Source: Eubacterium sp.
Lineage (GTDB): Bacteria; Bacillota; Clostridia; Oscillospirales; Acutalibacteraceae
Length of the DNA: 64,000 nucleotides
Assembly (NCBI GenBank): GCA_022511225.1
Contig: JAFLRZ010000001.1
Span: 1-64,000 of the forward strand
Direction: 5' to 3'
Part shown: positions 2,240 through 50,589 of the stretch, piece after piece
How positions within the stretch are numbered: position 1 is the first letter of the stretch
Layout of the letters: each line of letters starts with the position of its first letter
Position numbers and translations under genes: made by a program
The notes under the pieces: model-generated
Told to the model about the DNA's origin: nothing
What the model saw: only the letters and a program-made list of their open reading frames with translations
The model's database searches: none

Positions 2240-3514
2240 TTATAAAGTTATTAAATCATTGTACATATCAAAACAATCAAAGGTAGCAAAGTAATCCTTC
2301 GGTGTCTCTGCTCGTCTTATAAGCTGAAAACTGCCATCCTCTTTAAGAAGAATTTCGGAGCTCTTAAGCTTTCCGTTATAATTATAACCCATAGAAAAGC
2401 CGTGAGCACCTGCGTCGTGGATAAACAAATAGTCGCCCATATCGATTTTAGGAAGCATTCTGTCTATCGCAAACTTATCGCAGTTTTCACAAAGCGAGCC
2501 TGTAACGTCATACTTATTGTCGCAAGGCTCATTCTCCTTACCAAGAACAGTGATGTGATGATACGCTCCGTAAATTGCAGGTCTCATAAGATTTGCAGCA
2601 CAAGCATCAACACCTATATATTCCTTATGTGTGTGCTTTTCGTTAATAGCCTTAGTGATGAGCGCGCCGTAAGGACCCATCATATATCTTCCAAGCTCAG
2701 TGAAGATAGCAACGTCGTCCATACCTGCAGGGACTAAAACCTCTTCATAAGCTTTTCTGACACCGTCACCGATAACGAATATATCATTCGGCTCCTGATC
2801 AGGCTTATAAGGAATACCGATGCCGCCTGAGAGGTTAATAAACGTGATATGTACATCAAGCTTATTTTTAAGCTCAACTGCAAGCTCAAAAAGAATTTTT
2901 GCAAGCATAGGGTAATATTCGTTAGTAACAGTATTAGAGCAGAGGAAGGAATGAATACCGAACTCTTCAACACCCTTTTCTTTAAGTATAGCAAAAGCCT
3001 CAAAAATCTGCTCGGTTGTCATACCGTACTTAGCGTCACCCGGATTATCCATAATGTCGTTCGTGATTTTGAATACGCCACCGGGATTGTAACGGCAGCT
3101 CATTTTTTTAGGGAGCTTTCCGCAAGCCTTTTCTACTGCTGCAATATGAGTAATGTCATCAAGATTTATAATTCCGCCAAGGTCATCACAATACTTGAAC
3201 TCTTCAATAGGTGTGTCGTTTGATGAAAACATAATATCATCACCTGTTGCACCGATAGCTTTGGAAAGCATCAGCTCTGTTATTGATGAACAGTCACAAC
3301 CACATCCGTATTCTCTTAAAATATTGATAAGAAACGGATTAGGGGTAGCCTTTACGGCAAAATACTCCTTATAACCCTTATTCCATGAAAATGCCTTTTT
3401 AAGATTCTGTACATTTTCTCTGATTCCCTTTTCATCGTACAAATGGAAAGGTGTAGGATATGCTGCTGATATTTCTTCAACCTTTTCCTTTGTTACAAAA
3501 ACTTTCTTACTCAT
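2240..3514 (-). CDS. lysA: Diaminopimelate decarboxylase
   Basis: A PLP-dependent fold-type III decarboxylase that converts meso-diaminopimelate to L-lysine and CO2, the last step of lysine synthesis. The PLP lysine is K55 in YFAVKATPNP. The conserved His lies in FGIHSFLCSN, the phosphate-binding glycine loop is LSGGIGIPY, ELGRYMMGPYG follows, and the substrate/active-site GSLCENCDKFA (Cys-Glu) plus the C-terminal DAGAHGFSMGYNYNG complete the family pattern. At 424 residues it has normal length. It is the last gene of lon-engB-lysA and overlaps the engB stop by 8 bases, which suggests coupled translation. Related decarboxylases (CANSDC, arginine type) lack the diaminopimelate-type Cys-Glu context, so lysA is favoured. 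Confidence 0.9.
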   Translation of the reverse strand: MSKKVFVTKEKVEEISAAYPTPFHLYDEKGIRENVQNLKKAFSWNKGYKEYFAVKATPNPFLINILREYGCGCDCSSITELMLSKAIGATGDDIMFSSNDTPIEEFKYCDDLGGIINLDDITHIAAVEKACGKLPKKMSCRYNPGGVFKITNDIMDNPGDAKYGMTTEQIFEAFAILKEKGVEEFGIHSFLCSNTVTNEYYPMLAKILFELAVELKNKLDVHITFINLSGGIGIPYKPDQEPNDIFVIGDGVRKAYEEVLVPAGMDDVAIFTELGRYMMGPYGALITKAINEKHTHKEYIGVDACAANLMRPAIYGAYHHITVLGKENEPCDNKYDVTGSLCENCDKFAIDRMLPKIDMGDYLFIHDAGAHGFSMGYNYNGKLKSSEILLKEDGSFQLIRRAETPKDYFATFDCFDMYNDLITL

Positions 3515-4109
3515 TTATATTTCCTCCATCACTGATTGCATTTTCAATATAATTCTTAATTCCGTTAATTCCCTGCCCTGTTACAGCCGAAAACGGAACA
3601 ACAGGTACGTTGCCTGCAAAAGCAAGCTCATCTTTTGACTTTTTAAGTCTTTCGGCATACGCGGTCTTTTTAAGCTTATCACACTTCGTCATAACTATGA
3701 TAAAAGGCAAGCCCATTTCCATCATAAAAGTAATCATACCTTTATCATCTTCAGTTAAAGGATGACGCATATCAATCAGTTGTATAACGAGCTTTATATT
3801 TCTGTCGCTTTGAAAATAGCCTTCCATAAGCTCGCCAAATCGGTTAAGCTCCTGCTTGCTGATTTTTGCATATCCGTAGCCGGGTAAGTCTACAAACTTA
3901 ATACCGTCAACGTCATAAAAGTTTATGGTTATTGTTTTACCCGGAACAGAGCTGACTCTTGCAAGCTGTTTACGATTAAACAGTTTATTTAGAAGTGAGC
4001 TCTTTCCGACGTTTGATCTGCCTGCAAAAACGATTTCGCAGGTGTCATCATCAGGGAGCTGGGATGATAAGCCAAATGCCTTTTCAAAAAATGCTTTATT
4101 ATAATTCAT
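3507..4109 (-). CDS. engB: Ribosome biogenesis GTPase YsxC/EngB
   Basis: A TrmE-Era-EngA-EngB-family GTPase needed for 50S subunit assembly. All G motifs are visible: G1 GRSNVGKSSLLN near residue 31, G2 in SSVPGKTITINFY, G3 DLPGYGYAK, G4 TKCDK and a G5-like PFSAVTGQG. The length (200) is typical. It lies 7 bases after lon, as in many Firmicutes (clpX-lon-ysxC), and overlaps lysA by 8 bases. Confidence 0.96.
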   Translation of the reverse strand: MNYNKAFFEKAFGLSSQLPDDDTCEIVFAGRSNVGKSSLLNKLFNRKQLARVSSVPGKTITINFYDVDGIKFVDLPGYGYAKISKQELNRFGELMEGYFQSDRNIKLVIQLIDMRHPLTEDDKGMITFMMEMGLPFIIVMTKCDKLKKTAYAERLKKSKDELAFAGNVPVVPFSAVTGQGINGIKNYIENAISDGGNINE

Positions 4110-4116
4110 AATTCCC

Positions 4117-6525
4117 CTACTGTGTTACTGCTGAATTCTTTACTGTCTTGTCAGCGGTATAATACATTTTTGGATTAGGTTTGTTTTTTGCTATACTGCC
4201 ATCAAAAGCAATATTCAGAATCTCATCAAAATTACTTACTGCAACAAATTCAACAGCATCTTTAACTTCATCAGAAATCTCGGACAAATCCTTAATATTA
4301 TCAAAAGGAATAATTACCGTTGTACAACCCGCCTTGTATGCAGCCATAGATTTTTCCTTAAGTCCACCTATAGCCATTGCCTTACCTTTTAGGCTGATTT
4401 CTCCCGTCATTGCTACATCTGATTTGATTGCAACACCTGTTAATTCACTTACTAAGGCAGTTGTAAAAGCAAGACCTGCAGACGGACCGTCTTTAGGTAC
4501 TGCACCTTCAGGAGTATGAATATGGATATCCTTGTTTTTATAAAACTCGTTATCTATTCCATACAAATCAGCCTTGCTTCTGACAAATGAAATAGCAGTC
4601 TTAGCACTTTCCTTCATCACGTCACCGAGGTTACCTGTAAGCTCAATTTTACCTGTTCCGTCAAGTGCACTTACCTCAATGGGAAGCATTGTGCCTCCAA
4701 CGCTTGTCCACGCAAGACCGTTAACCACACCGACCTGATTTTCTTTTGCAATTACGTCAGGCTTATATTTGATTTTACCAAGAAAATCATCAATGTTATT
4801 AGCTGTTACTTTAAAGATTTTTTCTCCGCTTTCAAGCGAAACAGCAGCCTTTCTGCAAAGTGTTGCAAGCTGTTTTTGCAGATTTCTTACACCTGCTTCT
4901 TTTGTGTAACCCTCAATAAGTGTGTGTATGGCATCATCTGTGATTTTAAATTCCTTGGAAGAAATGTTATGCCTTTCAAGCTCTTTTTTTAGCAGATGCT
5001 TTTTTGCAATATAAAATTTTTCCTGAACAGTATACGAGCTAAGCTCTATAATTTCCATTCTGTCATAAAGAGGTGCAGGAATAGATGATACGTCATTTGC
5101 AGTTGTGATAAAAAGCACGTTGCTTAAATCAATCGGAAATTCAATATAATGGTCTGCAAATGTATTGTTTTGCTCAGGATCAAGCGCCTCAAGAAGTGCA
5201 GAAGAAGGATCACCCTTATAATCTGCTCCGAGCTTGTCAATCTCATCAAGCAAAACGATAGGATTCATAACCTCACTTTTTATAATTGCCTCGACAATTC
5301 TGCCCGGCATAGCACCTATGTATGTCTTTCGGTGTCCCCTTATCTCAGCTTCATCATGAATACCGCCAAGTGCAATACGAACATATTTTCTATTCATACT
5401 CTTTGCAAGAGATTTTACAATAGAGGTTTTACCAACTCCCGGAGGGCCTGCAAGGCAGAGAATCTGACCTGAAAAATCAGGATTACGCTTATAAACTGCA
5501 AGAGAATCTACTATTCTCTCCTTAACTTTATCAAGACCGTAATGGTCCTTATCAAGAATCTTTCTTGACTTATCAAGATTAATACTATCTTTTGTACATT
5601 TGCCAAAAGGAATTTCAAGAGCCTTGTCAAGATAATTCCTTAAAACAGTTGCCTCGTGCGAGCCTAAGGGCATCTTCATAAGCTTATTAGTGTAATTTAT
5701 AAGCTTGTCCTTAATTTCGTCACTGCATTTAAGATTATTTATTTTTTGCCTGTATTCGTCAGCTTCTTCAACGGGGCTTTCGGTTTCACCAAGAGTTTCT
5801 GCAATAACCTTCATTTCCTCACGAAGATAATATTCACGCTGACCCTTGTCAATTTCAGCGGCAACCTTTTTTTGTATCTCCTGCTCAATCTGCAGCTCTT
5901 CATTTTCCTTGGAAATAAAAATATATAACTGTGAAATGCGCTCGGTTGGATTAATAATTGATAATATAGTCTGCTTATTAATGTATGTAAGATTGATTTC
6001 AGAGCTTATAATGTCAGCAAGCTCACCGCTAAGCTTTGCATTATCAACACGATTATGAATTTCATTAGAAATATCTCTCGTAAGCTCAGAATATTTATCA
6101 AATTCTTTTCTTACAAGACGCTTGTAAGCTAAATCCTCACGTGTTTCCTCGTGCTCACCATCATCAATACCATATACATCAGCCAATATAAACGGCTTTG
6201 TCTGGTTAAGACTGACAAGCTCTGCCCTGTAAATTCCCTCAACTGCAACTCTGACGCATCTTTCGTTATTGCCAAGTCTTATGAGCTGTTTAACGGTACA
6301 AACCGTACCGATTTCATAAAGATCGTCAAATTGAGGCTCGTCAATTACAGGATCTTTCTGACAAACAATAAATACTTTCTGGTCAGTATTCATTGCATTT
6401 TTAAGTGCCTCAATGCTCTTTTTGCGACCAACATCAAAGGTAATAGTTGAATTTGGAAAAACAACAAGACCTCTGAGCGGAATTACAGGAAGATTTGTTA
6501 ATGTATCATTTATATTACTACACAT
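4117..6525 (-). CDS. lon: ATP-dependent Lon protease
   Basis: A cytoplasmic AAA+ serine protease that degrades misfolded and regulatory proteins. At 802 residues it is a full-length LonA. The N-terminal LON domain begins LPVIPLRGLVVFPN, then come a coiled linker, Walker A GPPGVGKTS, Walker B VLLDEIDKLG and the proteolytic domain. The catalytic Ser-Lys dyad is S682 in PKDGPSAGLAF and K725 in GGLKEK. The start ATG follows TAGG. The gene has its own SigA promoter downstream of the clpX terminator, and no CIRCE element is seen. It is followed closely by engB and lysA. The C-terminal tail (KNKPNPKMYYTADKTVKNSA) is longer and more basic than in many orthologues. Confidence 0.97.
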   Translation of the reverse strand: MCSNINDTLTNLPVIPLRGLVVFPNSTITFDVGRKKSIEALKNAMNTDQKVFIVCQKDPVIDEPQFDDLYEIGTVCTVKQLIRLGNNERCVRVAVEGIYRAELVSLNQTKPFILADVYGIDDGEHEETREDLAYKRLVRKEFDKYSELTRDISNEIHNRVDNAKLSGELADIISSEINLTYINKQTILSIINPTERISQLYIFISKENEELQIEQEIQKKVAAEIDKGQREYYLREEMKVIAETLGETESPVEEADEYRQKINNLKCSDEIKDKLINYTNKLMKMPLGSHEATVLRNYLDKALEIPFGKCTKDSINLDKSRKILDKDHYGLDKVKERIVDSLAVYKRNPDFSGQILCLAGPPGVGKTSIVKSLAKSMNRKYVRIALGGIHDEAEIRGHRKTYIGAMPGRIVEAIIKSEVMNPIVLLDEIDKLGADYKGDPSSALLEALDPEQNNTFADHYIEFPIDLSNVLFITTANDVSSIPAPLYDRMEIIELSSYTVQEKFYIAKKHLLKKELERHNISSKEFKITDDAIHTLIEGYTKEAGVRNLQKQLATLCRKAAVSLESGEKIFKVTANNIDDFLGKIKYKPDVIAKENQVGVVNGLAWTSVGGTMLPIEVSALDGTGKIELTGNLGDVMKESAKTAISFVRSKADLYGIDNEFYKNKDIHIHTPEGAVPKDGPSAGLAFTTALVSELTGVAIKSDVAMTGEISLKGKAMAIGGLKEKSMAAYKAGCTTVIIPFDNIKDLSEISDEVKDAVEFVAVSNFDEILNIAFDGSIAKNKPNPKMYYTADKTVKNSAVTQ

Positions 6526-6567
6526 AGTTAACCTACTTACAAGTTTATTTTATAAAATATTAATTTG

Positions 6568-6596
6568 ATTATATAATAATTAAAGAAAAAACGCAA
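6568..6596 (-). promoter_or_regulatory. SigA-type promoter of lon-engB-lysA
   Basis: Minus-strand TTGCGT (6591-6596), exact 17 bp spacer, consensus TATAAT (6568-6573). It lies between the clpX terminator and the lon start, giving a leader of about 35 bases. Confidence 0.75.
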
Positions 6597-6614
6597 TAAA
6601 AAGTTGATACTAAT

Positions 6615-6655
6615 TTAGACAGAAAAAGAGCTTGGTAAAACCAAACTCTTTTTTA
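6615..6655 (-). terminator. Terminator after clpX
   Basis: Stem AAAAAGAG/CTCTTTTT (6623-6630 with 6646-6653), continued by TTGG/CCAA (6632-6635 with 6641-6644) after one mismatch. On the minus strand the U tract is TTTTTCTG. It closes tig-clpP-clpX. Confidence 0.8.
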
Positions 6656-6663
6656 TATATTGC

Positions 6664-7953
6664 TTATGCATTTTTTAGTTCACTTACCGTAAGATTAACG
6701 GCTTGCTTTTTAGAGCTCTTAGTAATAATCGGCTCTTCGTTATTTCTTACACAGTTTTCAGTGATAATAATTTCAGTAACGGTATCATCACTCGGAATAT
6801 CAAACATCAAATCATTCAAAACACTTTCGAACGTACTGCGAAGACCTCTTGCACCAGTTTTTCTTTCAAGAGTAATATCAGCAATAGCCCCTAATGCCTT
6901 ATCATCAAAAATAAGCTTTACGTTGTCAAGTTCAAATAATTTCTGATACTGTTTGACAATAGAGTTTTTAGGTTCTTTCATAATACGGATAAGTGCTTCC
7001 TTGTCAAGCTCGTCAAGAACCGAAAGAACCGGGATTCTGCCGATTAACTCAGGAATCAAGCCAAACTTGACTAAATCATGCTGAATAGCATTATGAAGTA
7101 TATTCTTCTCCTTAAGCTTTGATGATTTAACTTCTGCACCAAATCCGAGAGAAGCACCGCCAATGCGCTTTTCAATAATTTTTTCTATGCCGTCAAAAGC
7201 ACCGCCGCATATAAATAAAATATTAGTCGTGTCAATTTGAATAAATTCCTGTTGCGGATGCTTTCTGCCACCGCCCGGCGGAACGTTTGATACGGTGCCT
7301 TCAAGAATCTTAAGAAGCGCCTGCTGTACTCCCTCACCGCTGACATCTCTTGTAATAGAACGGTTTTCGCTCTTACGAGAGATTTTATCGATTTCATCAA
7401 CGTAGATTATACCACGCTGAGCCTTTTCTATATCGAAATCAGCTGCCTGAATAAGACGGAGCAATATATTCTCAACGTCCTCACCGACGTAACCTGCTTC
7501 GGTCAAAGTAGTGGCATCAGCAATTGCGAACGGAACGTTAAGTGTCTTGGCAAGGGTCTGTGCAAGCATAGTTTTGCCTACACCTGTTGGACCTAAAAGC
7601 ATTATATTGCTTTTTTGAAGCTCAACGTCACCGACTAATCCACCACTGTAAATACGCTTATAATGGTTATAGACAGCAACTGAAAGTGCTTTTTTGGCCT
7701 CATCCTGACCTATAACGTATTCGTCAAGCTTCTGCTTAATTTCGGCAGGTTTTGGAAGAACGATATCATCCTCCTCAGCCGAAGTATTAGGAACCTTTAC
7801 AGGATTGCTGTCATTGAGCATCTCATAGCAAACACTTACACATTCATCACATATGCAGACACCTCTGCCAGCAAGAAGCTTATGAACTCTTGATTCAGGC
7901 TTACCGCAAAAAGAGCATCTGGCAATATTGTTATATGAATCATCTCTTGACAT
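6664..7953 (-). CDS. clpX: ATP-dependent Clp protease ATP-binding subunit ClpX
   Basis: An AAA+ unfoldase that feeds tagged substrates to ClpP. The N-terminal zinc-binding domain has C13/C16 and C33/C35/C38 (CSFC...CICDEC). Walker A is GPTGVGKT and Walker B is IIYVDEIDK. The ClpP-docking IGF-type loop appears as LGFGAEV within residues of the large AAA domain, and sensor 2 (GARGLRS) is present. The length of 429 is typical. It lies 12 bases downstream of clpP, within the canonical tig-clpP-clpX operon. Confidence 0.97.
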
Positions 7954-7965
7954 AAAATCTTACCC

Positions 7966-8547
7966 TTATCTTTTATCAATTACTTTATCAACAAGTCCGA
8001 ATTCAAGAGCTTCCTGTGCAGTGAGCCAATTATCTCTATCAGTAGCAGCAGTCATTTCTTCAACTGTTTTTCCGCAGTTTTCAGCCATTATTGTATTTAA
8101 TTTCTTCTTTGTATGAAGAATGTGATTAGCGGCAATCTCAATTTCTGTTGCCTGTCCCTCTGTTCTTCCGAGAGGCTGATGAATCATAACCTCTGAGTTA
8201 GGAAGGCAGATTCTCTTGCCCTTAGCACCGCTTGAAAGCAGAAATGCACCCATAGAAGCAGCCATACCCATACAGATAGTAGATACATCACACTTGATAT
8301 ACTGCATCGTATCATAAATAGCCATACCGTCTGTCACAGAGCCACCGGGACTGTTGATATAAAGGCTGATGTCCTTTTCGCTGTCCTGTCCCTCGAGGAA
8401 CAAAAGCTGTGCTACAACGAGTGATGCTGTTGTTGAATTAACCTCATCAGAAAGGACTATAATTCTGTCGTTTAATAATCTGGAATAAATATCCATTGAG
8501 CGCTCTCCGGCGCCGGTCTGTTCAAGAACATAAGGCACTAATGCCAT
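7966..8547 (-). CDS. clpP: ATP-dependent Clp protease proteolytic subunit
   Basis: A serine peptidase of family S14 that forms the two-ring barrel of ClpXP. The catalytic triad is S98 (GMAASMGAF), H123 (MIHQPLG) and D172 (DRDN). The protein is 193 residues, with the short N-terminal propeptide ([20 protein letters not shown]) usual for the family. It sits between tig and clpX, 27 bases after tig. A second, divergent ClpP-fold protein (TepA) is encoded at 57269-58009. Confidence 0.97.
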
Positions 8548-8574
8548 ATAATCACCAATCCTTTAATAGTGTAA

Positions 8575-9858
8575 TTATTCCTTAACTGCTGACTCAACGA
8601 TTAAATCAACAGCCTTTCTTGTCTTAATATCTGATGCAAGCTGTTCAGCAGGAACAGCAGCCTTAATCTGCTCAGCCTCCATCTGATACTGTTCAGCAAG
8701 CTTTGCAACCTCAGCGTCAATTTCTTCTTCAGTTGCTTCGATATTTTCAGCTTTAACAATTGCTTCAAGAGCAATAGAGGTCTTAACCTGCTTCTCAGCA
8801 CCCTCTTTGAAGGTTTCTTTGAAGGAGTCCATATCCTGACCCATATAACCAAGATATGTATTAAGGTCAATGCCCTGCATCTGGAGTCTGTATGAGTAAT
8901 CCTGAATCATCTCGTCACATCTCTGATCATACATACATTCAGGAACTTCAACCTCCATATTCTCAACAACCTGCTCGATTAACTGATTTTCAAAATCAGC
9001 CTTTGCGTCTGCTTCTTTCTTATCAGAAAGCTGCTTTTTGATGTCTGCCTTAAGCTCATCAAGAGTATCAAAATCTGATACGTCCTTTGCAAATTCGTCA
9101 TCAAGCTCAGGAAGTTCCTTTGTCTTGATTTCGTGAATTTTGCACTTGAATACGGCATCCTTGCCTGCAAGCTCAGCAGCATACTCTTCAGGGAAAGTAA
9201 CGTTTACGTCAAACTCATCACCAACGTTATGACCTGCAACCTGCTCCTCAAAACCCGGAATGAATGAGCCTGAGCCAAGCTCGAGAGGATAATTCTCGCC
9301 CTTGCCTCCGTCAAAAGCTACACCGTCAACAAAGCCTTCGAAGTCGATTTCAGCAGTATCGCCCATCTCAGCAGCTCTGTCCTCAACTGTAACAAGTCGT
9401 GAATTCCTGTCAAGCATATTGTTTATTTCGTTATCTACGTCTTCATCAGTTGCTTCTGTCGGGAGCATTGCAGCCTTTAAGCCCTTGTACTCGCCAAGCT
9501 TAACCTCTTCCGGATAAACATTAATTTTAAGAGTAAGCTCTAAACCCTCTGACTTGCTCATTACAGGAACGTCAAGATCAAAAGGCTGACCTACCATTCT
9601 GAAATTACCCTCTTCAATTGCATCACCTACAACTGTTGGGTATATAATTTCAAGTGCTTCCTCGTAGAATGCACCCTCACCATAATATTTCTCTACCATT
9701 CCCTGAGTAGCCTTACCCTTACGAAATCCCGGAATCTGAATGCTTTTTCTCTGCTTCTGGTAAGCTTTTTTGCAAGCTTCAGCAAACTCCTCAGCTGTTG
9801 CAGTGATGTTAAGCTCATATACGTTTGTCTCAACTTTATTAGATGATTTAAGTGCCAT
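8575..9858 (-). CDS. tig: Trigger factor, ribosome-associated peptidyl-prolyl isomerase
   Basis: A chaperone that binds at the ribosome exit tunnel. The ribosome-docking signature GFRKGKA is at about residue 43 (IPGFRKGKATQGMVEKYYG). The FKBP-type PPIase domain follows (MGDTAEIDFEGFVDG...FIPGFEEQVAGHNVGDEFDV), then a long helical C-terminal arm domain rich in Glu and Lys. The length is 427. RBS AGGAGG stands well placed before the ATG. First gene of tig-clpP-clpX. Confidence 0.97.
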   Translation of the reverse strand: MALKSSNKVETNVYELNITATAEEFAEACKKAYQKQRKSIQIPGFRKGKATQGMVEKYYGEGAFYEEALEIIYPTVVGDAIEEGNFRMVGQPFDLDVPVMSKSEGLELTLKINVYPEEVKLGEYKGLKAAMLPTEATDEDVDNEINNMLDRNSRLVTVEDRAAEMGDTAEIDFEGFVDGVAFDGGKGENYPLELGSGSFIPGFEEQVAGHNVGDEFDVNVTFPEEYAAELAGKDAVFKCKIHEIKTKELPELDDEFAKDVSDFDTLDELKADIKKQLSDKKEADAKADFENQLIEQVVENMEVEVPECMYDQRCDEMIQDYSYRLQMQGIDLNTYLGYMGQDMDSFKETFKEGAEKQVKTSIALEAIVKAENIEATEEEIDAEVAKLAEQYQMEAEQIKAAVPAEQLASDIKTRKAVDLIVESAVKE

Positions 9859-43177: not shown

Positions 43178-44254
43178 ATGAGTACAAGAACAGAAAATAT
43201 CAGCAATATTGCAATTAATAAAAACGCTGATGCCGTTATACTTCTTAACGAGGGCAATATGCATTATGCCTGCGGTTTTTCGCCAAGCGAAGGTGTAGTT
43301 ATTATCACTAATGATAATACTTCGTATCACATTGTTGATTCGAGGTATACAGAAACAGCTATTAACCATTCAGCTGAAACAGGAATGAACGTAATAGAAA
43401 TTACGGAAAGCTTTTCAAAAGAAGTAGAGAGCATAGTAAAAAAACATAACATACGCTCAATGCTTTTTGAAAACGAAACAATTTCTTTGTCGAGCTTTAG
43501 GCAATACAGTAAGCTGCTTAGTAACATTGAGTTTATTGAGCTTGGAAACGAGCTGATGAAGCTCAGAAACATTAAGGATATAGATGAAATAAAATTTATT
43601 AAAACAGCAAATAATATTGCTGAAAAGTCGTTTATGGAGCTTTTGGATGAAGTGAAGGCAGGAAAAACAGAAAAAGAGCTTGCCTCACTGTTTGACTATC
43701 TTATGGCAAAAAACGGCTCTGACGGTATAAGCTTTGACACGATTTTATTGACCGGTGTCCACACTTCTATGCCACACGGAGTACCCGAGGAGAGAAAAAT
43801 ACAAGAGGGTGACTTTGTACTGTTTGACTTCGGTGCAACCTATAAGGGTTACCATTCGGATATGACAAGGACCGTTGCCGTGCATCACGCAACAGATGAA
43901 ATGGCTGAGTGCTACAATCTTGTGCTAAAGGCTCAGCTTGCGGGCATAAAGGCGCTTGGTGCAGGTGTTCCCTGTGCTGACGTTTATAAAAGTGCTTACG
44001 ATGTTCTCAATGAAAAAGATATGGCAAAATATTTCAGGCACAGTCTTGGTCACGGCGTTGGTCTTGAAATTCACGAGGGATATAACGCATCACCTAAAAG
44101 CAAAGATACTTTTGAAGTTGGTAACGTGACCTCAATTGAGCCGGGAATTTATATACCTGACAAGTTTGGAATAAGGATTGAGGATTTACTTTATATTTCA
44201 CCAAGAGGCAGAGAAAATTTGTCAAAAATTACAAAGGAGTTGATTATTCTTTAA
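43178..44254 (+). CDS. Xaa-Pro aminopeptidase (M24B)
   Basis: 358 residues: an N-terminal creatinase-like domain, then the pita-bread catalytic domain. The metal ligands are visible as Asp in FDFGATYKGYHSDMTRT (two Asp), His in RHSLGHGVGLEIHE, Glu in TSIEPGIYIP and Glu in FGIRIEDLL. It removes N-terminal residues before proline, in the cytoplasm. The length and order fit YqhT/PepP-type enzymes; a PepQ-type prolidase is the alternative. It is translationally coupled to copA by TAATG (the last stop base is the first base of copA), an unusual partner for a peptidase. Confidence 0.92.
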   Translation: MSTRTENISNIAINKNADAVILLNEGNMHYACGFSPSEGVVIITNDNTSYHIVDSRYTETAINHSAETGMNVIEITESFSKEVESIVKKHNIRSMLFENETISLSSFRQYSKLLSNIEFIELGNELMKLRNIKDIDEIKFIKTANNIAEKSFMELLDEVKAGKTEKELASLFDYLMAKNGSDGISFDTILLTGVHTSMPHGVPEERKIQEGDFVLFDFGATYKGYHSDMTRTVAVHHATDEMAECYNLVLKAQLAGIKALGAGVPCADVYKSAYDVLNEKDMAKYFRHSLGHGVGLEIHEGYNASPKSKDTFEVGNVTSIEPGIYIPDKFGIRIEDLLYISPRGRENLSKITKELIIL

Positions 44255-46365
44255 TGAAGCAAAAGTTTTTGGTAACAGGAATGAGCTGTGCAGCCTGTTC
44301 GGCAAGAGTTGAAAAAGCAGTTGCTCCCCTGTGTACATTCGTTAACGTTAATCTGCTTGCAGGCACAATGGTTGCTGAATATGACTGTGATACAACAGAT
44401 ATAATTAACGCAGTAACTAACGCCGGCTACGGATGTGAGCCGTTCAGGCTGAAAAAGTCTGTAAACTCAGAAGAAGTCAGATCTATGAAAAGAAGAGTTA
44501 TTATTTCAGTAATTCTTTTAATTCCGCTTATGTATCTCTCTATGGCTCATATGTTTCATTACAATCTGCCGTGGATTTTAGGAGATCACATACCAAACGG
44601 AATAGGTCAGATGATTTTCACCCTGCCAATAATGATTGTAAACTATAAATTCTTTACGAGCGGATTTAAAGCACTTATCAAGCTAAATCCTAATATGGAC
44701 AGCCTTGTATCCGTCGGCTCGGGTGCTTCTTTTATATACAGCATTGTATCTTTGATATTTTTTGAACATAGCCACGTTTATTTTGAATCAGCAGGTATGA
44801 TTCTCGCACTTATAACAGTCGGTAAATATCTTGAAACAATAAGCAAAGGCAAAACAAAGGATGCAATAAATGCACTTATTGATCTCGTTCCTGAAAAGAG
44901 TATAATTCTTAAAGATAACAATGAAGTTGAGATTGAATCTGCTCTGATTCAAGAAAACGATTTGGTAGTTATCAAACCGGGTATGAGAATCGCTGTTGAC
45001 GGGGTAATCGTTTCGGGCAGCGGATCGGTTGACCAGAGTACGGTAACCGGAGAAAGTGTACCTGTTGATTTAACTGAGGGTGACAAGGTTATCAGCGGAA
45101 CAGTTAATAAAAACGGAAATTTTGTATTCCGTGCTACCGCAGTCGGTGACGAGTCAACACTTTCAAGGATTATAGCACTTGTTGAGGACGCTTCATCATC
45201 AAAAGCACCTGCGCAGAGGCTTGCAGATAAAATCTCTTCCGTATTCGTACCGGCAGTAATCATTATATCAATTATAGCATTTGCAGTATGGCTCCTTCTT
45301 GGAAAAGGCTTTGAATTTGCATTTTCAATAGGAATATCCGTTCTCGTAATAAGCTGTCCTTGTGCGCTTGGTCTTGCAACACCGTGCGCTATTATGATAG
45401 GTACAGGAAAGGGTGCTGAAAACGGTATACTATTCAAGGATGCGACTGCACTTGAAAATTTGGGTAAGTGCAATACAATTGTTTTTGATAAAACCGGAAC
45501 AATAACTCAGGGTGAAATGTTCGTAACAGATATAACAAACGAAGAATTCATCGACATTATCTATACTATTGAAAATGTTTCTGATCATCCGATTTCCGAG
45601 GCAATATGCAACTACTGCAAGGAAAAAGGTGCTAAGCTCCTTGAAATTCAGGAAAGTGAGTATCAGATAGGAAAAGGTATCGTTGCAAAAATCGGCGATA
45701 AAATCTACAAAGCAGGAAATCAAAAGCTTACTGGATTTGCTGACAATGAGTATTCATACTCAGGAAAAACTCCGGTAATATTTACTTGTGATGACGAATA
45801 CCTTTGCACAGTAGCAGTAGCCGACAAAATCAAGGATGATGCAAAAGAGGCTATCGATTCAATTACTGCAGATACGATTATGATTACCGGAGATAACGAG
45901 CTGACTGCATATGCAATCACTCAGCAGGCAGGCATCAAAAGTTTTATTGCTTCGGCACTGCCTGATGATAAAGAAAGAAAAATCAAAGAGCTTATTGAGG
46001 AGGGAAAAACCGTTGCAATGATTGGCGACGGCATTAATGACTCCCCTGCTCTAACGAGAGCAGACGTAGGAATAGCGATTGGTGCTGGGTCTGATATTGC
46101 AATTGAGTCTGCCGACGTTGTTTTGGTATCGAACAGACTTACAGACGTATCAAAGGCGATAAGGCTTTCTAAAAAAACACTTAGAAATATCAGAGAAAAT
46201 CTGTTTTGGGCATTTTTTTACAACTGTCTTGGAATACCGCTCGCCGCAGGATGCTTTTACGGTATTTTCGGATGGACGTTAAATCCGATGATAGCGGCAG
46301 CTTGTATGAGTCTGAGCTCCGTCACAGTTGTTACTAATTCACTAAGATTAAGGAGGTTTAAGTAA
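44254..46365 (+). CDS. copA: Copper-translocating P1B-type ATPase
   Basis: Exports Cu(I) from the cytoplasm. It has one N-terminal HMA domain with GMSCAACSARVEKAV, then eight predicted membrane segments with the metal-channel motif CPCALGLATPCA, the actuator TGES (VTGESVPVD), the phosphorylation site DKTGTIT, SDHPISEAI (SxHP) and the hinge GDGINDSPAL. The CPC motif plus MSS-type C-terminal residues (ACMSLSSVTVVTNSLRL) indicate Cu(I) rather than Zn/Cd. 703 residues. It is coupled by TAATG to the peptidase before it and, again by TAATG, to copZ after it. No CsoR or CopY gene is in the window. Confidence 0.96.
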   Translation: MKQKFLVTGMSCAACSARVEKAVAPLCTFVNVNLLAGTMVAEYDCDTTDIINAVTNAGYGCEPFRLKKSVNSEEVRSMKRRVIISVILLIPLMYLSMAHMFHYNLPWILGDHIPNGIGQMIFTLPIMIVNYKFFTSGFKALIKLNPNMDSLVSVGSGASFIYSIVSLIFFEHSHVYFESAGMILALITVGKYLETISKGKTKDAINALIDLVPEKSIILKDNNEVEIESALIQENDLVVIKPGMRIAVDGVIVSGSGSVDQSTVTGESVPVDLTEGDKVISGTVNKNGNFVFRATAVGDESTLSRIIALVEDASSSKAPAQRLADKISSVFVPAVIIISIIAFAVWLLLGKGFEFAFSIGISVLVISCPCALGLATPCAIMIGTGKGAENGILFKDATALENLGKCNTIVFDKTGTITQGEMFVTDITNEEFIDIIYTIENVSDHPISEAICNYCKEKGAKLLEIQESEYQIGKGIVAKIGDKIYKAGNQKLTGFADNEYSYSGKTPVIFTCDDEYLCTVAVADKIKDDAKEAIDSITADTIMITGDNELTAYAITQQAGIKSFIASALPDDKERKIKELIEEGKTVAMIGDGINDSPALTRADVGIAIGAGSDIAIESADVVLVSNRLTDVSKAIRLSKKTLRNIRENLFWAFFYNCLGIPLAAGCFYGIFGWTLNPMIAAACMSLSSVTVVTNSLRLRRFK

Positions 46366-46580
46366 TGAAAAAGATTATTTCAATTAACGGAATGGCTTGT
46401 GAGCACTGTGTAGCAACAGTTAAGACAGCACTTGAGAGTCTGGATGCAGTAAAAAGTGCAAAGGTTGAGCTTAAAAAAAACAGTGCAACTGTAAAGCTTG
46501 CAGAAGATGTCAGCAATGATGTGCTTACTCAGGCGATTACGGATGCAGGCTTTGAAGTAACAGCAATTACTGAAAAATAA
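46365..46580 (+). CDS. copZ: Copper chaperone CopZ (heavy-metal-associated domain)
   Basis: A 71-residue ferredoxin-like HMA domain with the Cu(I)-binding motif GMACEHCVATV (MxCxxC) and the usual VKSAKVELKKNSATVKL strand region. It passes copper to CopA. The start codon overlaps the copA stop (TAATG), with AAGGAGG in the last copA codons. It is the last gene of the operon and is followed by a strong terminator. Confidence 0.95.
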   Translation: MKKIISINGMACEHCVATVKTALESLDAVKSAKVELKKNSATVKLAEDVSNDVLTQAITDAGFEVTAITEK

Positions 46581-46659: not shown

Positions 46660-47190
46660 TTAATACCACTTATTTATCCAACCGTCTTTATCAGTAATAG
46701 GTTGGGTTTCCTTTTGTTCAGTAGTTTCTGTAGTTGCAGTTGTTTGCTTTTCGGTAGTAGTTGGGTCAGGTTTTGTTTCCTCTGCCTCATTGGTCGGCTC
46801 AAATTCAACAACATTGTCGGCATTATCAATATTTCTTGTAGTGCCTGTTGATGATTTTTCTGTTGTCGGTTTTGTTGTGCTGATTGTATTATCAGTTACA
46901 CTTTTAATAGGCAGAACTGTTGTATTCTCATTAGTAACATATGTACCGCCTTTTTTGGTTACAACTTTACCGTTTGATTCTGTTTCAATCTCAGCAAACA
47001 CGCCTTGATTTTTACTTGTTGTTGATAAATTGCCTTTATTATCAGTAACAGGCTCATAATAATGAGTTGTTCCGTTACTGTCTGTAACAGCAGTAGTTGA
47101 AGCATCTTCACTACTGCTGTTTGCAGAACATGAAACAAAGATACTGACAATAACAACTAATACGGAGATAATAAGTAATTGCTTTTTCAT
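46660..47190 (-). CDS. Small Thr/Ser-rich probable lipoprotein
   Basis: 176 residues. The N-terminus MKKQLLIISVLVVIVSIFVSC is a signal with Cys at the end of the hydrophobic stretch (FVS-C, an imperfect lipobox), followed by SANSSSED. The mature part is low in complexity: TTAVTDSNGTTHYYEPVTD, repeated Asn/Thr-rich units, then a Thr/Glu-rich linker (KPDPTTTEKQTTATTETTEQ) and an aromatic end (DKDGWINKWY). It looks like a cell-surface spacer or a short adaptor. The ATG shares one base with the stop of the 39-codon peptide (TAATG), so translation is coupled. It is third in subtilase-peptide-lipoprotein. No known domain was recognised. Confidence 0.72.
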   Translation of the reverse strand: MKKQLLIISVLVVIVSIFVSCSANSSSEDASTTAVTDSNGTTHYYEPVTDNKGNLSTTSKNQGVFAEIETESNGKVVTKKGGTYVTNENTTVLPIKSVTDNTISTTKPTTEKSSTGTTRNIDNADNVVEFEPTNEAEETKPDPTTTEKQTTATTETTEQKETQPITDKDGWINKWY

Positions 47191-47309
47191 TAGTCACCAA
47201 AATTCACATCGTTATCGCCTTTTTGCGTGTCATCAATGCTTGTTGTAACAACATCTATTGTTTTGAATTGCTCAATTGTTGCAATTGGCTTTGAATAAAT
47301 CTCTTTCAT
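47190..47309 (-). CDS. Overlooked 39-residue peptide gene
   Basis: The peptide starts MKEIYSKPIATIEQFKTIDV and ends in an acidic polar stretch (VTTSIDDTQKGDNDVNFGD). A near-perfect ribosome binding site (GGGAGG) lies 7 bases before the ATG at 47309. The gene begins inside the last codons of the subtilase (38-base overlap in another frame), and its TAA overlaps the ATG of the lipoprotein. The Y-x-x-P-x-I...F...DVV-TTS pattern resembles short clostridial peptides often annotated only as hypothetical. There is no signal peptide. It may be a peptide precursor or a processed signal; this is inference. A non-functional leader that couples the two genes is the alternative. Confidence 0.68.
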   Translation of the reverse strand: MKEIYSKPIATIEQFKTIDVVTTSIDDTQKGDNDVNFGD

Positions 47310-50300
47310 AATCATACCTCCCTTTCAATATTTTATTTAACATTGTTTTTGTTGAATTGTCTATTTCCTCATCGGCTAAAACAAGATTTGATACTTCACT
47401 GAATGAGCCGTTGAGACTGTTTGAATAAAAGTACATTCCGTCAATACAAACATAAGCTCTTACAGAAATATTTGTGTTTTGATTAGAATCAGGAATATTA
47501 GTGAATACCAAATTGAATACAGTTTTACCATCGTTGCTGTCATCCAAATTAACTGCTTCCTTCTTCTTAATGTTATCTATACCAACATTATCAATAGTTA
47601 ATTTATCTGATCCATAAGGCTCGTTATCATAGTTGTAATGATAAACAAAGCCATAATCAACTTTTGATGCTAATTCTTCAATTTCAGGTATTTCATCCCA
47701 AGAGAATCCAAAACGGAGTCCCGCATTTGTTACTCGTATAGAACGACCTTTATCTTCTACATTTATTGGTGAATCCATAGAAGAATCTCGGTAATCACTT
47801 GGTATAAATGTATGGTTGTTTTCTTTTGCCCATTGTTCTGCGTATGAGCCACTTGGTGCAATGACTTTATGAGCATAAGAAGTATTATTTATACCTTTCT
47901 CAAATTCATCTGATAAATATAATGTACATTTACCGTTTGGAAGAATTGAATTTAAACTTGTCAATTTAGGAGCAAATAATATTTCTAAATTATTATCACC
48001 ATCAAAACAATTTGTACCTATAGTTATTACATTAGGTAAGTATACAGATTTTAAGGATTTATTTACATCAAATGAATTATTTCCCAGTACGGTTACTCTT
48101 GGTAAATTAATGTTCTCTATTGATGCATAAGAAAACGTATTTCTTGGAATTTCCCCCTCATAATTTGAAATATCAATGGTAGTCAAATTTCGACAATAAT
48201 TAAAAGCACTAAATTCAATAAGCTGTAAATTTGGCAAATAAATTTCAGTTAATTTTGTGCAACTTCTAAATGCTCTGCTTCCTATTATCTCAACATTGCT
48301 CATTGATATATTCTCAAGTTTGAGATTGGAGGCAAATGCGTTATCGCCAATTTTTATACATTTCGGAATATTTACATTTATTATTTTATCGCAACCATTA
48401 AAGCCATAATTTGATATGTTTGTGATATTATCACCATTCACACTTATGAGAGATCTGCATGATGCAAATGCATATTCGCCAATATTTTCAATTTTTGAGA
48501 AATCGAACAATTCTAATTTGCTACATAACCGAAAAGCTTGATTTTGAACATTTTCGATGTTTTTCGCATCTACTGAATACAGCTTATTACAAGAAAGAAA
48601 AGCATTTCTACCAATATAAGTAGCGGAATCAGGTAATTTAATCATAACCATATTACTACTCATAAAAACTGATTCTCCTATTCCTATTACACTAATATCA
48701 TTAATAGAATCGGGAACTGATAAATATTCGTTTGAACCATAATATGCTGTTATGATTCCGTTACTGTCAATTTCAAAATTTGATTCATCATCTAAATAAG
48801 TAATATAATAACGGGCACTCATTTGGATGCTTTTCAGCTTATCAGGAGCATATGCACTAGCAGATAATGTTGTTACTTTATCAATTACAATGGGTTCAGT
48901 ATATAATGTACCATTTGTATCAGTTGCCCTCGTACCATCAGTTGTATAATAGATTTTTGCATCTGAATCATCACATGAAATTTCTACAGTTATACTATCT
49001 CTATATCTCCCAGCCTCCATACTGAAATAAGGCTGTGCGGTTCTTGGAGTCAAAAGAGTTTCAACATTACCTATATATAGTGCAGGAATACCTACTAAAC
49101 CGTTATCTGTTGCTTTGCTCCATACTCTACCATTTTCAACTAATAAATCGCATATTTCATCACGAGAATAATTACGGTTCTTAGATAATAACAATGCCGC
49201 TGAGGCACAAACAAATGGACATGCCATAGAAGTTCCGCTTAATGTTTCATACCCTCCGTTGTTATATGTACTGTAAATGGAAACACCGGGTGCTACAATA
49301 TTTACTGCACGACCCCAATTTGTCCAATATGGTGCTTTATCATACTCATCTATTGCTGCTACCGTTATGCAATTTTTAATATTTGCAGGTGTATGTTTTG
49401 AAGCGTTTGAGCCATCATTTCCAGCTGCAACGCAGATAACAACCCCTGCTTTTGTTGCACGATTGACTGCATTTTCCATTGATGTACTCTCGCCTTTAGT
49501 GCCAAGACTCATATTAATCACATTAACACCATCATTAACGGCATAATCTACAGATGTTGCAACATTGGAAATTGAACCGCTACCTGAACTGTTTAAGGTC
49601 TTATAGCTTTTTATTTTAATATTATCGGTAGTATTGTCCGCCACAATACCGGCAACGTGAGTTCCATGTCCTTCATCATCATCTTCACTATTTTGATCTC
49701 CGCTACTACTGGTATTGTAATTCGTTTCAATGATTCTGTCTTTTAGAAATTCGTGGTCTAAATCAATACCGGTATCAATTATTCCCACAACAATCTCAGG
49801 TAATGAATCAATTTCTGACAATGTATCAATAAAATCATCAACGGCAATTGAATCACTGCCCCAAGACAAATGCGAGCCATAAGAACTGATTGAATTTGCA
49901 AAAGCAGAGTTTGTATCAATATAGTCAATATCCATAGTAGTGACTACTAAATCAGGCTCGGCATATTCAATAAGCTTCTGCTTTTCATAATATTCCTGAG
50001 CCTGTTTTGCACTTTCCTGATTATCAAACTGAACAATATGTAAATCGTTGTAGCCTTCCACGATTGCAACTGAATCAAGTGGATTGATGTCATATTTAGA
50101 CTTAACAATAAGTCTCTTTGTTTGATACGGCTGTGTTAATACAGCCGTATCATCTTTGATTTCAACTTCATATCCAAGAGCTACCGCCGTTCCTTTGTCA
50201 ACAGTTATATCTTCGGCAGATTCAGTTTCCAATGAATATGTTGAGGTTTCAGGCATTTCACAATAATCAGATATTGCAGAAACAGGTATTTCAAAATCAT

Positions 50301-50556
50301 TTTTGCTGACTTCTGCAACAATATCACCGTCCTCAGACAATGGCATTTCTTCACCGTCAACATAGTAAAATTCACTGCCATTTTCAACGGTTATTTCAGA
50401 TATATAATAATCATCATACCCTGCCTGCATTTCCTGCAATTGACTTGTGAATTCCTCAAGTGAAATTTCAGGAGTGATGCTTGAAGCATATACCACCATT
50501 GGCAATCCTGTAATCACCATACATATTGGCAATATTAATGATATTAGCTTTTTCAC
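47272..50556 (-). CDS. Secreted subtilase (S8) with long BspA-like LRR_5 array
   Basis: About 1094 residues from a GTG start (AAAGGGG is 8 bases upstream; the TTG at 50562 is less likely). In order: signal peptide (LISLILPICMVITGLPMVVYAS); a spacer; I9-like prodomain (about 148-205); S8 domain with D261 (GIIDTGIDLDHEF), H297 (GHGTHVAG), N380 (VAAGNDGS) and S443 (LSGTSMACPF), so it is active by motif; a chitobiase C-terminal-like beta segment (about 510-575, IYYTTDGTRATDTNG); roughly twelve LRR_5 repeats (IGENAFASNLKLENI type, about 600-885); and a C-terminal beta domain of about 180 residues. There is no dockerin or LPxTG motif. It is first in subtilase-peptide-lipoprotein, driven by the shared ECF-like element. 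Paralogue of the gene at 15488-17614, which is shorter and ends in a half dockerin. Confidence 0.9.
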   Translation of the reverse strand: MKKLISLILPICMVITGLPMVVYASSITPEISLEEFTSQLQEMQAGYDDYYISEITVENGSEFYYVDGEEMPLSEDGDIVAEVSKNDFEIPVSAISDYCEMPETSTYSLETESAEDITVDKGTAVALGYEVEIKDDTAVLTQPYQTKRLIVKSKYDINPLDSVAIVEGYNDLHIVQFDNQESAKQAQEYYEKQKLIEYAEPDLVVTTMDIDYIDTNSAFANSISSYGSHLSWGSDSIAVDDFIDTLSEIDSLPEIVVGIIDTGIDLDHEFLKDRIIETNYNTSSSGDQNSEDDDEGHGTHVAGIVADNTTDNIKIKSYKTLNSSGSGSISNVATSVDYAVNDGVNVINMSLGTKGESTSMENAVNRATKAGVVICVAAGNDGSNASKHTPANIKNCITVAAIDEYDKAPYWTNWGRAVNIVAPGVSIYSTYNNGGYETLSGTSMACPFVCASAALLLSKNRNYSRDEICDLLVENGRVWSKATDNGLVGIPALYIGNVETLLTPRTAQPYFSMEAGRYRDSITVEISCDDSDAKIYYTTDGTRATDTNGTLYTEPIVIDKVTTLSASAYAPDKLKSIQMSARYYITYLDDESNFEIDSNGIITAYYGSNEYLSVPDSINDISVIGIGESVFMSSNMVMIKLPDSATYIGRNAFLSCNKLYSVDAKNIENVQNQAFRLCSKLELFDFSKIENIGEYAFASCRSLISVNGDNITNISNYGFNGCDKIINVNIPKCIKIGDNAFASNLKLENISMSNVEIIGSRAFRSCTKLTEIYLPNLQLIEFSAFNYCRNLTTIDISNYEGEIPRNTFSYASIENINLPRVTVLGNNSFDVNKSLKSVYLPNVITIGTNCFDGDNNLEILFAPKLTSLNSILPNGKCTLYLSDEFEKGINNTSYAHKVIAPSGSYAEQWAKENNHTFIPSDYRDSSMDSPINVEDKGRSIRVTNAGLRFGFSWDEIPEIEELASKVDYGFVYHYNYDNEPYGSDKLTIDNVGIDNIKKKEAVNLDDSNDGKTVFNLVFTNIPDSNQNTNISVRAYVCIDGMYFYSNSLNGSFSEVSNLVLADEEIDNSTKTMLNKILKGRYDYERDLFKANCNN

Positions 50557-50589
50557 AAACAACGCCCCTTTAACTTCTTTTCCTTTCTT

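Follow-up and report, generated by a model that had tools for sequence, protein, structure and literature searches.

A short peptide gene behind a secreted subtilase in Clostridia as a probable precursor of a scattered, LPP-like RiPP system

What might be the role of a 39-codon open reading frame wedged between the genes for a secreted protease and a lipoprotein? The case arises in the window, by which is meant the whole 64,000-nucleotide stretch analysed here (positions 1 to 64,000 of contig JAFLRZ010000001.1, Eubacterium sp., GCA_022511225.1), where positions 47190-47309 of the minus strand translate as MKEIYSKPIATIEQFKTIDVVTTSIDDTQKGDNDVNFGD followed by a stop. The initial annotation had proposed an overlooked gene built like a small precursor with leader and core. 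The features concerned, in the direction of transcription, are the following.

47272..50562, minus strand: secreted subtilase of family S8, 1096 aa from the program-assigned TTG, carrying leucine-rich repeats of BspA type (Pfam PF00082, PF13306)
47275..47754, minus strand: C-terminal ~160 residues of the subtilase, an FN3/Ig-like domain of class A together with helices, a part that in relatives is linked to the peptide
47317..47322, minus strand: Shine-Dalgarno GGGAGG, 7 nt ahead of the ATG, read from the sequence
47190..47309, minus strand: candidate LppA-like precursor peptide gene, 39 aa, stop at 47190-47192 (open reading frame, profile family, purifying selection)
47238..47309, minus strand: putative leader, residues 1-24 (MKEIYSKPIATIEQFKTIDVVTTS), with the YxxP recognition motif and the conserved DVxTTS
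47193..47237, minus strand: putative core or variable acidic tail, residues 25-39 (IDDTQKGDNDVNFGD), a variable region; the leader-core boundary is approximate
47199..47216, minus strand: core motif DNDVNF (residues 32-37), of the class D[NT]D
46660..47190, minus strand: lipoprotein, 176 aa, with a 1-base translational overlap (TAATG) and a lipobox SC recognised by eye
46801..46818, minus strand: DNVVEF, a sequence similar to the peptide core motif within the linker of the lipoprotein
46663..46695, minus strand: TDKDGWINKWY at the C-terminus of the lipoprotein, a tail that one of the two tandem peptides in loci L110 and L112 has as its core

The arrangement is as the initial annotation described it: GGGAGG with its 7-base spacing is in place, the first 38 nt of the peptide gene lie in a different frame inside the 3' end of the gene for the S8 protease, whose stop is at 47272-47274, the peptide stop and the lipoprotein ATG have one base in common, and inspection of the 39 residues by eye reveals neither a signal peptide nor a hydrophobic stretch. 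Judged by spacing, the start at 47309 is better than the in-frame upstream ATG at 47315, for which the spacer would be 1 base. Since 11 of the 257 ATG-initiated frames of 30-60 aa in the window have some Shine-Dalgarno-like element, the element is by itself mild evidence for a gene; what is decisive is amino-acid conservation together with an excess of synonymous change, and by that comparative measure the predicted 39-codon gene is confirmed as real. In aligned homologues the protease stop stands just ahead of the peptide gene; the window subtilase ends ~15 residues later than they do, apparently with a 1-base frame difference (47272-47320), and this longer, seemingly frame-shifted end makes the 38-nt overlap, which has the look of a local accident.

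Compared with the relative at L232, 9 of the 16 changed codons are synonymous (neutral mean 0.21, p=0.0008). Neutral simulation gives p-values of 0.0008, 0.0030, 0.0005, 0/4000, 0.0027 and 0.0025 for six pairs and 0.36 for a seventh that has just 5 substitutions; the pairs are not independent, since three of them have members in common. On these substitution patterns the predicted peptide is under purifying selection at the amino-acid level, significantly so in 6 of 7 pairs. A profile of 14 family sequences has matches in 66 of the 80 genomes of the genus, where one genome may hold as many as 13 copies, and, across the order, in 53 of 295 genomes from 35 of 148 genera, though some of the order-level matches are partial, lie inside long frames and are probably spurious (e.g., those in G231 and G367 and one of those in G471). 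The window's genome itself has four LppA-like frames: that of the window (C1:47193), C1:149792, C23:132331 and a weak one at C26:13920. Conservation had been anticipated next to S8 proteases; at the amino-acid level it is indeed strong, but it is not confined to such neighbours.

Within the family, M1, K2, Y5, P8, T22 and S24 are invariant in the 14-row alignment, and across the 52 peptides with an MKxxY start Y5 reaches 1.00, P8 0.96 and D19 0.90, with S24 present in 46/52. The N-terminal 24 residues are conserved and the remainder is variable, which, along with the RiPP partner genes described below, supports the idea of a small leader-core precursor. By analogy with Ser3 of the LppA core, S24 is a candidate phosphorylation site. 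Neither Pfam nor NCBIfam yields a match to the 39-aa peptide; among the 14 family members there is one PHROG match (E 0.22) and two NCBIfam matches, to a lasso model (E 0.02) and an unrelated model (0.13), and the DVITTS motif was not found in the literature searched. At L131 (G372:C23, 7462-8509), a 348-aa frame seemingly starts with an S-layer-like domain, judged by eye, and ends in an LPP-like leader and core (EEYKKPELDVVEFDDEDVINTS...); it is possibly a surface-protein/precursor fusion.

The most regular feature of the family's surroundings lies upstream. A same-strand frame of at least 400 aa precedes the peptide at 51 loci; a crude rule flags a signal-peptide-like start in 38 of the 51, most of which are large, and one of the frames without the flag, at L134, is an ABC transporter. 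Many of these upstream proteins end in a related C-terminal domain, which in class A comprises a beta domain and then helices at the end, and in class B is without the helices; the window subtilase belongs to class A. AlphaFold2 models its C-terminal domain as an FN3/Ig-like sandwich (pLDDT 83.4), for which structure searches named nothing specific. Circularity was avoided by searching named genomes with the class-A domain alone (alignment A5, nine sequences), which returned 23 loci in uncultured gut-type Clostridia (labelled Clostridia, Eubacterium, Ruminococcaceae UBA7080 and similar). The domain is protein-terminal with DNA beyond it in 20 of the 23, and the peptide lies directly 3' in 20/20, 19 times in plain form and once with a GTG start, a count not fully independent of that for the genus as several of the class-A records are also among the other genomes. 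The other three loci either end at a contig end (L243) or have an internal domain (L253, L254). Across the genus there are 42 strong class-A matches (E up to 6.4e-34), with a listed peptide just 3' in 38; of the remaining four, one is at a contig end (G176:C136), one is without a peptide (G150:C16) and two have internal domains (G203:C9, G204:C9). Nine weaker or partial matches include two at contig starts without a peptide (G225:C46, C89). The peptide gene is genetically tied to the FN3-like C-terminal domain, and precursors that are dispersed and stand 3' of genes for secreted proteins, many of which end in such a domain, look new.

What enzymes might act on such a precursor? The window's genome codes for three PqqD-family proteins (C12:124862, C30:13124, C33:8772), the second adjoining an NTP_transf_5 gene and the third a radical SAM gene. 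It has one HprK-like kinase (C45:23723, E 7.1e-97 to alignment A2), of a family in which GTGKSTH and NDDKP are invariant and which weakly matches the NCBIfam models ScmC and HprK_rel_A. A SipW-like peptidase (C1:97578-97988) adjoins an ABC transporter, a pairing found in 7/7 genomes inspected; Ser and His are invariant in this family, its third catalytic residue may be Glu, not Asp, and the relative at L128 matches signal peptidase I below the cut-offs. The parts that resemble an LPP system are scattered over contigs C1, C12, C30 and C45.

These parts follow the peptide across the genus. PqqD-family proteins are found in 72 of 80 congeners, and the 10 genomes with no or only a marginal match all lack the peptide; the cross-tabulation (both, peptide alone, partner alone, neither) is 66/0/4/10 for strong PqqD matches (80 genomes, p=6e-10) and 59/7/4/10 for the kinase (p=8e-6), with four congeners thus having PqqD and no peptide match, seven having the peptide and no kinase match, and several of the discordant genomes being incomplete assemblies. 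The kinase family is present in 63/80 congeners and absent from the ten PqqD-less genomes; the SipW-like peptidase is present in 66/80 and represented in those ten only by a marginal match in G175 (7.6e-4). Part of the genus-level co-occurrence may stem from ancestry, as the ten PqqD-less genomes may be a single clade. In the order, PqqD is found in 45/53 peptide-positive and 98/242 other genomes (p=2e-9). At class level, the kinase profile matches in 110/391 genomes (E<=1e-20), many of these matches covering part of a longer protein, perhaps a different HprK-like kinase. NTP_transf_5 was discarded as a marker because it is not specific, occurring in 79/80 congeners; each of the ten PqqD-less genomes has a single copy, and 68 of the other 70 have two or more (G173 has 1, G202 has 0). 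A recurring distance of ~20-25 kb between NTP_transf_5 and the peptide was likewise set aside, the interval holding unrelated and secreted-protein genes. Elsewhere in the window's genome, a lone PqqD on C12 (L144, 9853-10119) lies near two large secreted-type proteins (3425-8614), one with a CotH domain, and PqqD genes of this type adjoin an iron-sulfur-type gene pair in several congeners, as seen by eye.

In some relatives, the parts come together. Ten genomes of the order have the peptide and PqqD on the same strand within ~3 kb, and gene maps confirm nine of these pairs (L117, L125, L128, L130, L132, L133, L219, L220, L221), the peptide of L133 having been found without an ATG start; in the tenth (G464), the PqqD protein was unrecognised by the analysis's own RRE profile. 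The peptide adjoins PqqD at three loci of the genus (L147, L148, L149) and the kinase at L082, and in other genera it stands beside PqqD and/or the kinase at L117, L125, L128, L130, L132, L219, L220 and L221. At L128, the order runs secreted protein, peptide, S-layer-domain protein, kinase, PqqD, peptidase, ABC transporter, NTP_transf_5; clusters that include the precursor are known only in relatives such as L128 and L130. Across 16 loci with adjacent kinase and PqqD genes, the peptidase is present at 14, NTP_transf_5 at 6 and an ABC match at 6 (4 strong), with a recognised ATG-start peptide within 4 kb at 8; nine of the 16 had been chosen for a peptide or a peptide-PqqD pair, and at the seven chosen by PqqD alone (L223, L225, L226, L228-L231) a peptide within 4 kb was found in 0/7. 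Polysaccharide-type genes recognised by eye lie near some of the relatives' clusters, namely a sugar transferase at L117 and chain-length-type proteins at L221, L223 and L228. L132 has in addition two YxxP-like or related peptides with Cys-containing cores (7875-8842, 6335-7735), near a radical SAM gene and a kinase-PqqD-peptidase set.

This set of parts parallels the LPPs, a RiPP family of Bacilli described by Popov et al. 2026 from lppAKBSDN of Paenibacillus alginolyticus (PMC13381572). According to the available portion of that report, LppA is a YxxP precursor with the consensus YxxPxVLxHQxIxFETxxS, LppK a kinase that phosphorylates Ser3 of the core, LppB an RRE that aids cleavage by the SipW-like peptidase LppS, LppD an exporter and LppN an NTP transferase (PMC13381572); the clusters hold 1-3 precursors and are located in capsule loci, and the authors regard the biological role of LPPs as unknown (PMC13381572). 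YxxP is a recognition motif (PMC13381572, PMC10368454). The words Clostridia, orphan, S-layer, lipoprotein and surface do not occur in the available text of PMC13381572.

Compared with the published description and consensus (PMC13381572), and not with Lpp sequences, the window family shares a short precursor, an N-terminal YxxP, a Ser 18-19 residues past the Tyr and a variable C-terminus, and the window's genome has the discrete PqqD-family RRE, the HprK-like kinase, the SipW-like peptidase, and an MsbA-like ABC transporter and NTP transferase, these last two families being unspecific. The polysaccharide genes beside some relatives' clusters are a further likeness. In contrast, the full leader consensus is missing, as the window family is without HQ and FET and has a Tyr-Ser spacing of 19 rather than 18; so is a single cluster with the precursor, the parts being unclustered in the window's genome and up to 13 precursors dispersed per genome. 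Unlike in the published clusters, the precursors lie 3' of secreted-protein genes and their core motifs recur in envelope proteins. Given its dispersed parts and the divergent middle of its leader, the system is better described as an LPP-like scattered variant than as a canonical lpp cluster. Two further parallels may be drawn. The phosphorylated lasso peptides (paeninodin, pseudomycoidin, Bsf) also combine a YxxP/WxxP leader, a discrete RRE, an HprK-like kinase and a nucleotidyltransferase (PMC9266682, PMC10368454, as far as the available text goes), but the window's genome lacks PF13471, the lasso B2 leader peptidase, and has the SipW-like peptidase instead. The SynChlorMet cassette (ScmC/ScmD, NCBIfam TIGR04249) likewise has a kinase-like protein and PqqD in one cluster, but the L128 kinase matches ScmC at E 2.3e-11, with 43.6 bits against a cut-off of 125.

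In light of the conservation, the selection, the counterparts of the parts in the genome, their co-occurrence and adjacency in relatives, and the YxxP...S form of the peptide, the window gene is quite probably an RRE-dependent, LppA-like RiPP precursor of a scattered LPP-type system. From the lpp pathway, we infer that the YxKP leader would be bound by a discrete PqqD-family RRE, that the HprK-like kinase would phosphorylate the conserved Ser ending the DVxTTS block, and that the SipW-like serine peptidase would take off the leader; the acidic core might then be exported by the MsbA-like ABC transporter, perhaps after an NTP_transf_5 step. With their genes at other places in the genome, the enzymes would act on several precursors scattered over it. 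By this analogy, the family members look like precursors of peptides that are probably phosphorylated. Outside the cell, the core with its DNDVNF would meet the upstream-encoded secreted protein bearing the linked FN3-like C-terminal domain, and also the downstream-encoded lipoprotein with its similar linker motif; such a docking role is the least certain part of the explanation.

Other readings of the same gene have to be weighed against this one. The peptide could be a different leader-bearing RiPP, either a lasso peptide or what the genome's own PqqD-radical SAM pair makes: lasso precursors, too, have YxxP leaders (PMC10368454, from the available text), one family member weakly matches a lasso model (E 0.02), the pair does exist in the window's genome (L146), and at L132 YxxP-like peptides with Cys-containing cores sit beside a radical SAM gene. 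We consider this unlikely, as across the genus it is the kinase and the SipW-like peptidase that track the peptide, the core of the window peptide has no Cys, and PF13471 is found in 0 copies in the window's genome, in 4/80 congeners at E<=0.001 and over the cut-off in 1/80; a lasso peptide was rejected on the absence of PF13471 from the window's genome. In the gene maps of the lpp-like loci, no asparagine-synthase-like macrolactam cyclase caught the eye. At L146 itself (contig C33, 7752-9403), PqqD stands beside a RiPP-maturase-related radical SAM protein, which matches TIGR04463 below the cut-off, near a 2156-aa frame.

That the peptide gene is tightly linked, on their 3' side, to genes whose secreted products have a C-terminal domain in common, and that the tail class goes with the domain class, might befit a non-RiPP protein partner, i.e., an intracellular chaperone or inhibitor acting on the C-terminal domain before export. 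Such a partner would leave unexplained why there is a YxxP leader, why RRE, kinase and peptidase occur along with the peptide, and why extracellular parts of envelope proteins carry copies of the motif, and is hence improbable; inhibition of the protease in particular is unlikely because the upstream proteins at other peptide loci have no protease domain. That the frame is merely a translated spacer opening the lipoprotein start, as a coupling or attenuation device, would suit the TAATG overlap in the window, but it is on the amino acids that selection acts, and in many relatives no lipoprotein gene follows, so that this reading is already disfavoured and seems highly improbable. The LPP-type precursor remains the preferred reading.

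What the core might do outside the cell is suggested by its recurrence in neighbouring proteins. D[NT]D tails occur in 17/21 class-A-linked peptides, 0/13 linked to class B and 5/19 others, four of these last five (L116, L119, L120, L121) following domains to which the class-A profile gives 34-55 bits. In leave-one-out prediction of the domain class, the leader is right for 26/34 and the tail for 32/34, against a majority class of 21; it is suggestive that the tail predicts the domain class, and descent of the gene pair explains part of this. The lipoproteins (17 aligned rows with two identical pairs, hence 15 distinct) carry DN[DEVN][VI]xF in their variable linker in 14/15 cases, L110 being without it, and end in [DE]G[WF][IV]x[KR]WY in 15/15. 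At L110 and L112 there are tandem LppA-like peptides, with the core DNDVPFGS and a core ending in DDEGWI[ND]KWY, one per lipoprotein motif. The motif also turns up where the peptide is absent or the domain internal: at G150:C16 the next lipoprotein carries DNDVVF, and at L253 and L254 DNDIxF/Y follows the domain within the same protein. In two other families, the sharing with S-layer-domain proteins is literal, as the core DNDIADPWG of L221 is an exact 9-residue stretch of such a protein in the same operon, and the core end EGDNGTGWG of L117 is the exact C-terminus of another; that of L223 contains GDNDVADPWG and GDNDASDPWG, and peptides elsewhere in that genome end in GDNDVSDPWA and GDNDLADPWA.

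The excess of such tail sharing over shuffled tails is weak in loose tests (21/67 against a mean of 12.7 at score 25; 5 against 3.1 at score 30). The strict test, run without the row of L131 (the 348-aa frame, whose core was wrongly cut), finds 3/66 at score 40, a count reached in 0/1000 shuffles, and restriction to C-termini gives 2/71 against 0.11 at score 30. Used as a regular expression, DN[DEV][VIL].[FYW] has 41 hits in 765,083 residues, many of them overlapping copies of one locus, and since 15 are in other frames it is unspecific on its own; unrelated proteins contain the motif too. As far as these sequence likenesses go, core motifs recurring in envelope proteins look new.

One may tentatively conceive of the LPP cores as soluble copies of docking motifs borne by lipoproteins and S-layer proteins: the secreted proteins with FN3-like domains would bind the motif, and the exported, phosphorylated core would compete with, cap or bridge this contact, and so set surface retention. 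The attraction of this idea is that it explains together the linkage to the C-terminal domain, the tail class tracking the domain class and the copies of the motif in anchored proteins. Against it, the gene pair may descend as a unit, the motif is short, and the motif in cis is disordered in the structure model; we hold it to be possible and rather doubtful. Were it true, this would be a ribosomal peptide system for surface assembly, not warfare, and the first function for LPPs. The open question of what LPPs are for could be turned into a binding experiment with defined partners. In gut-type Clostridia, LPP-like precursors are plentiful and dispersed, with a firm genetic tie to secreted proteins that have one kind of C-terminal domain, and would escape genome mining that is based on clusters. 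Beyond the lipoprotein, a copper-type P-type ATPase gene (copA) and one for a small CopZ-like protein (44254-46580, plus strand) converge on the lipoprotein gene.
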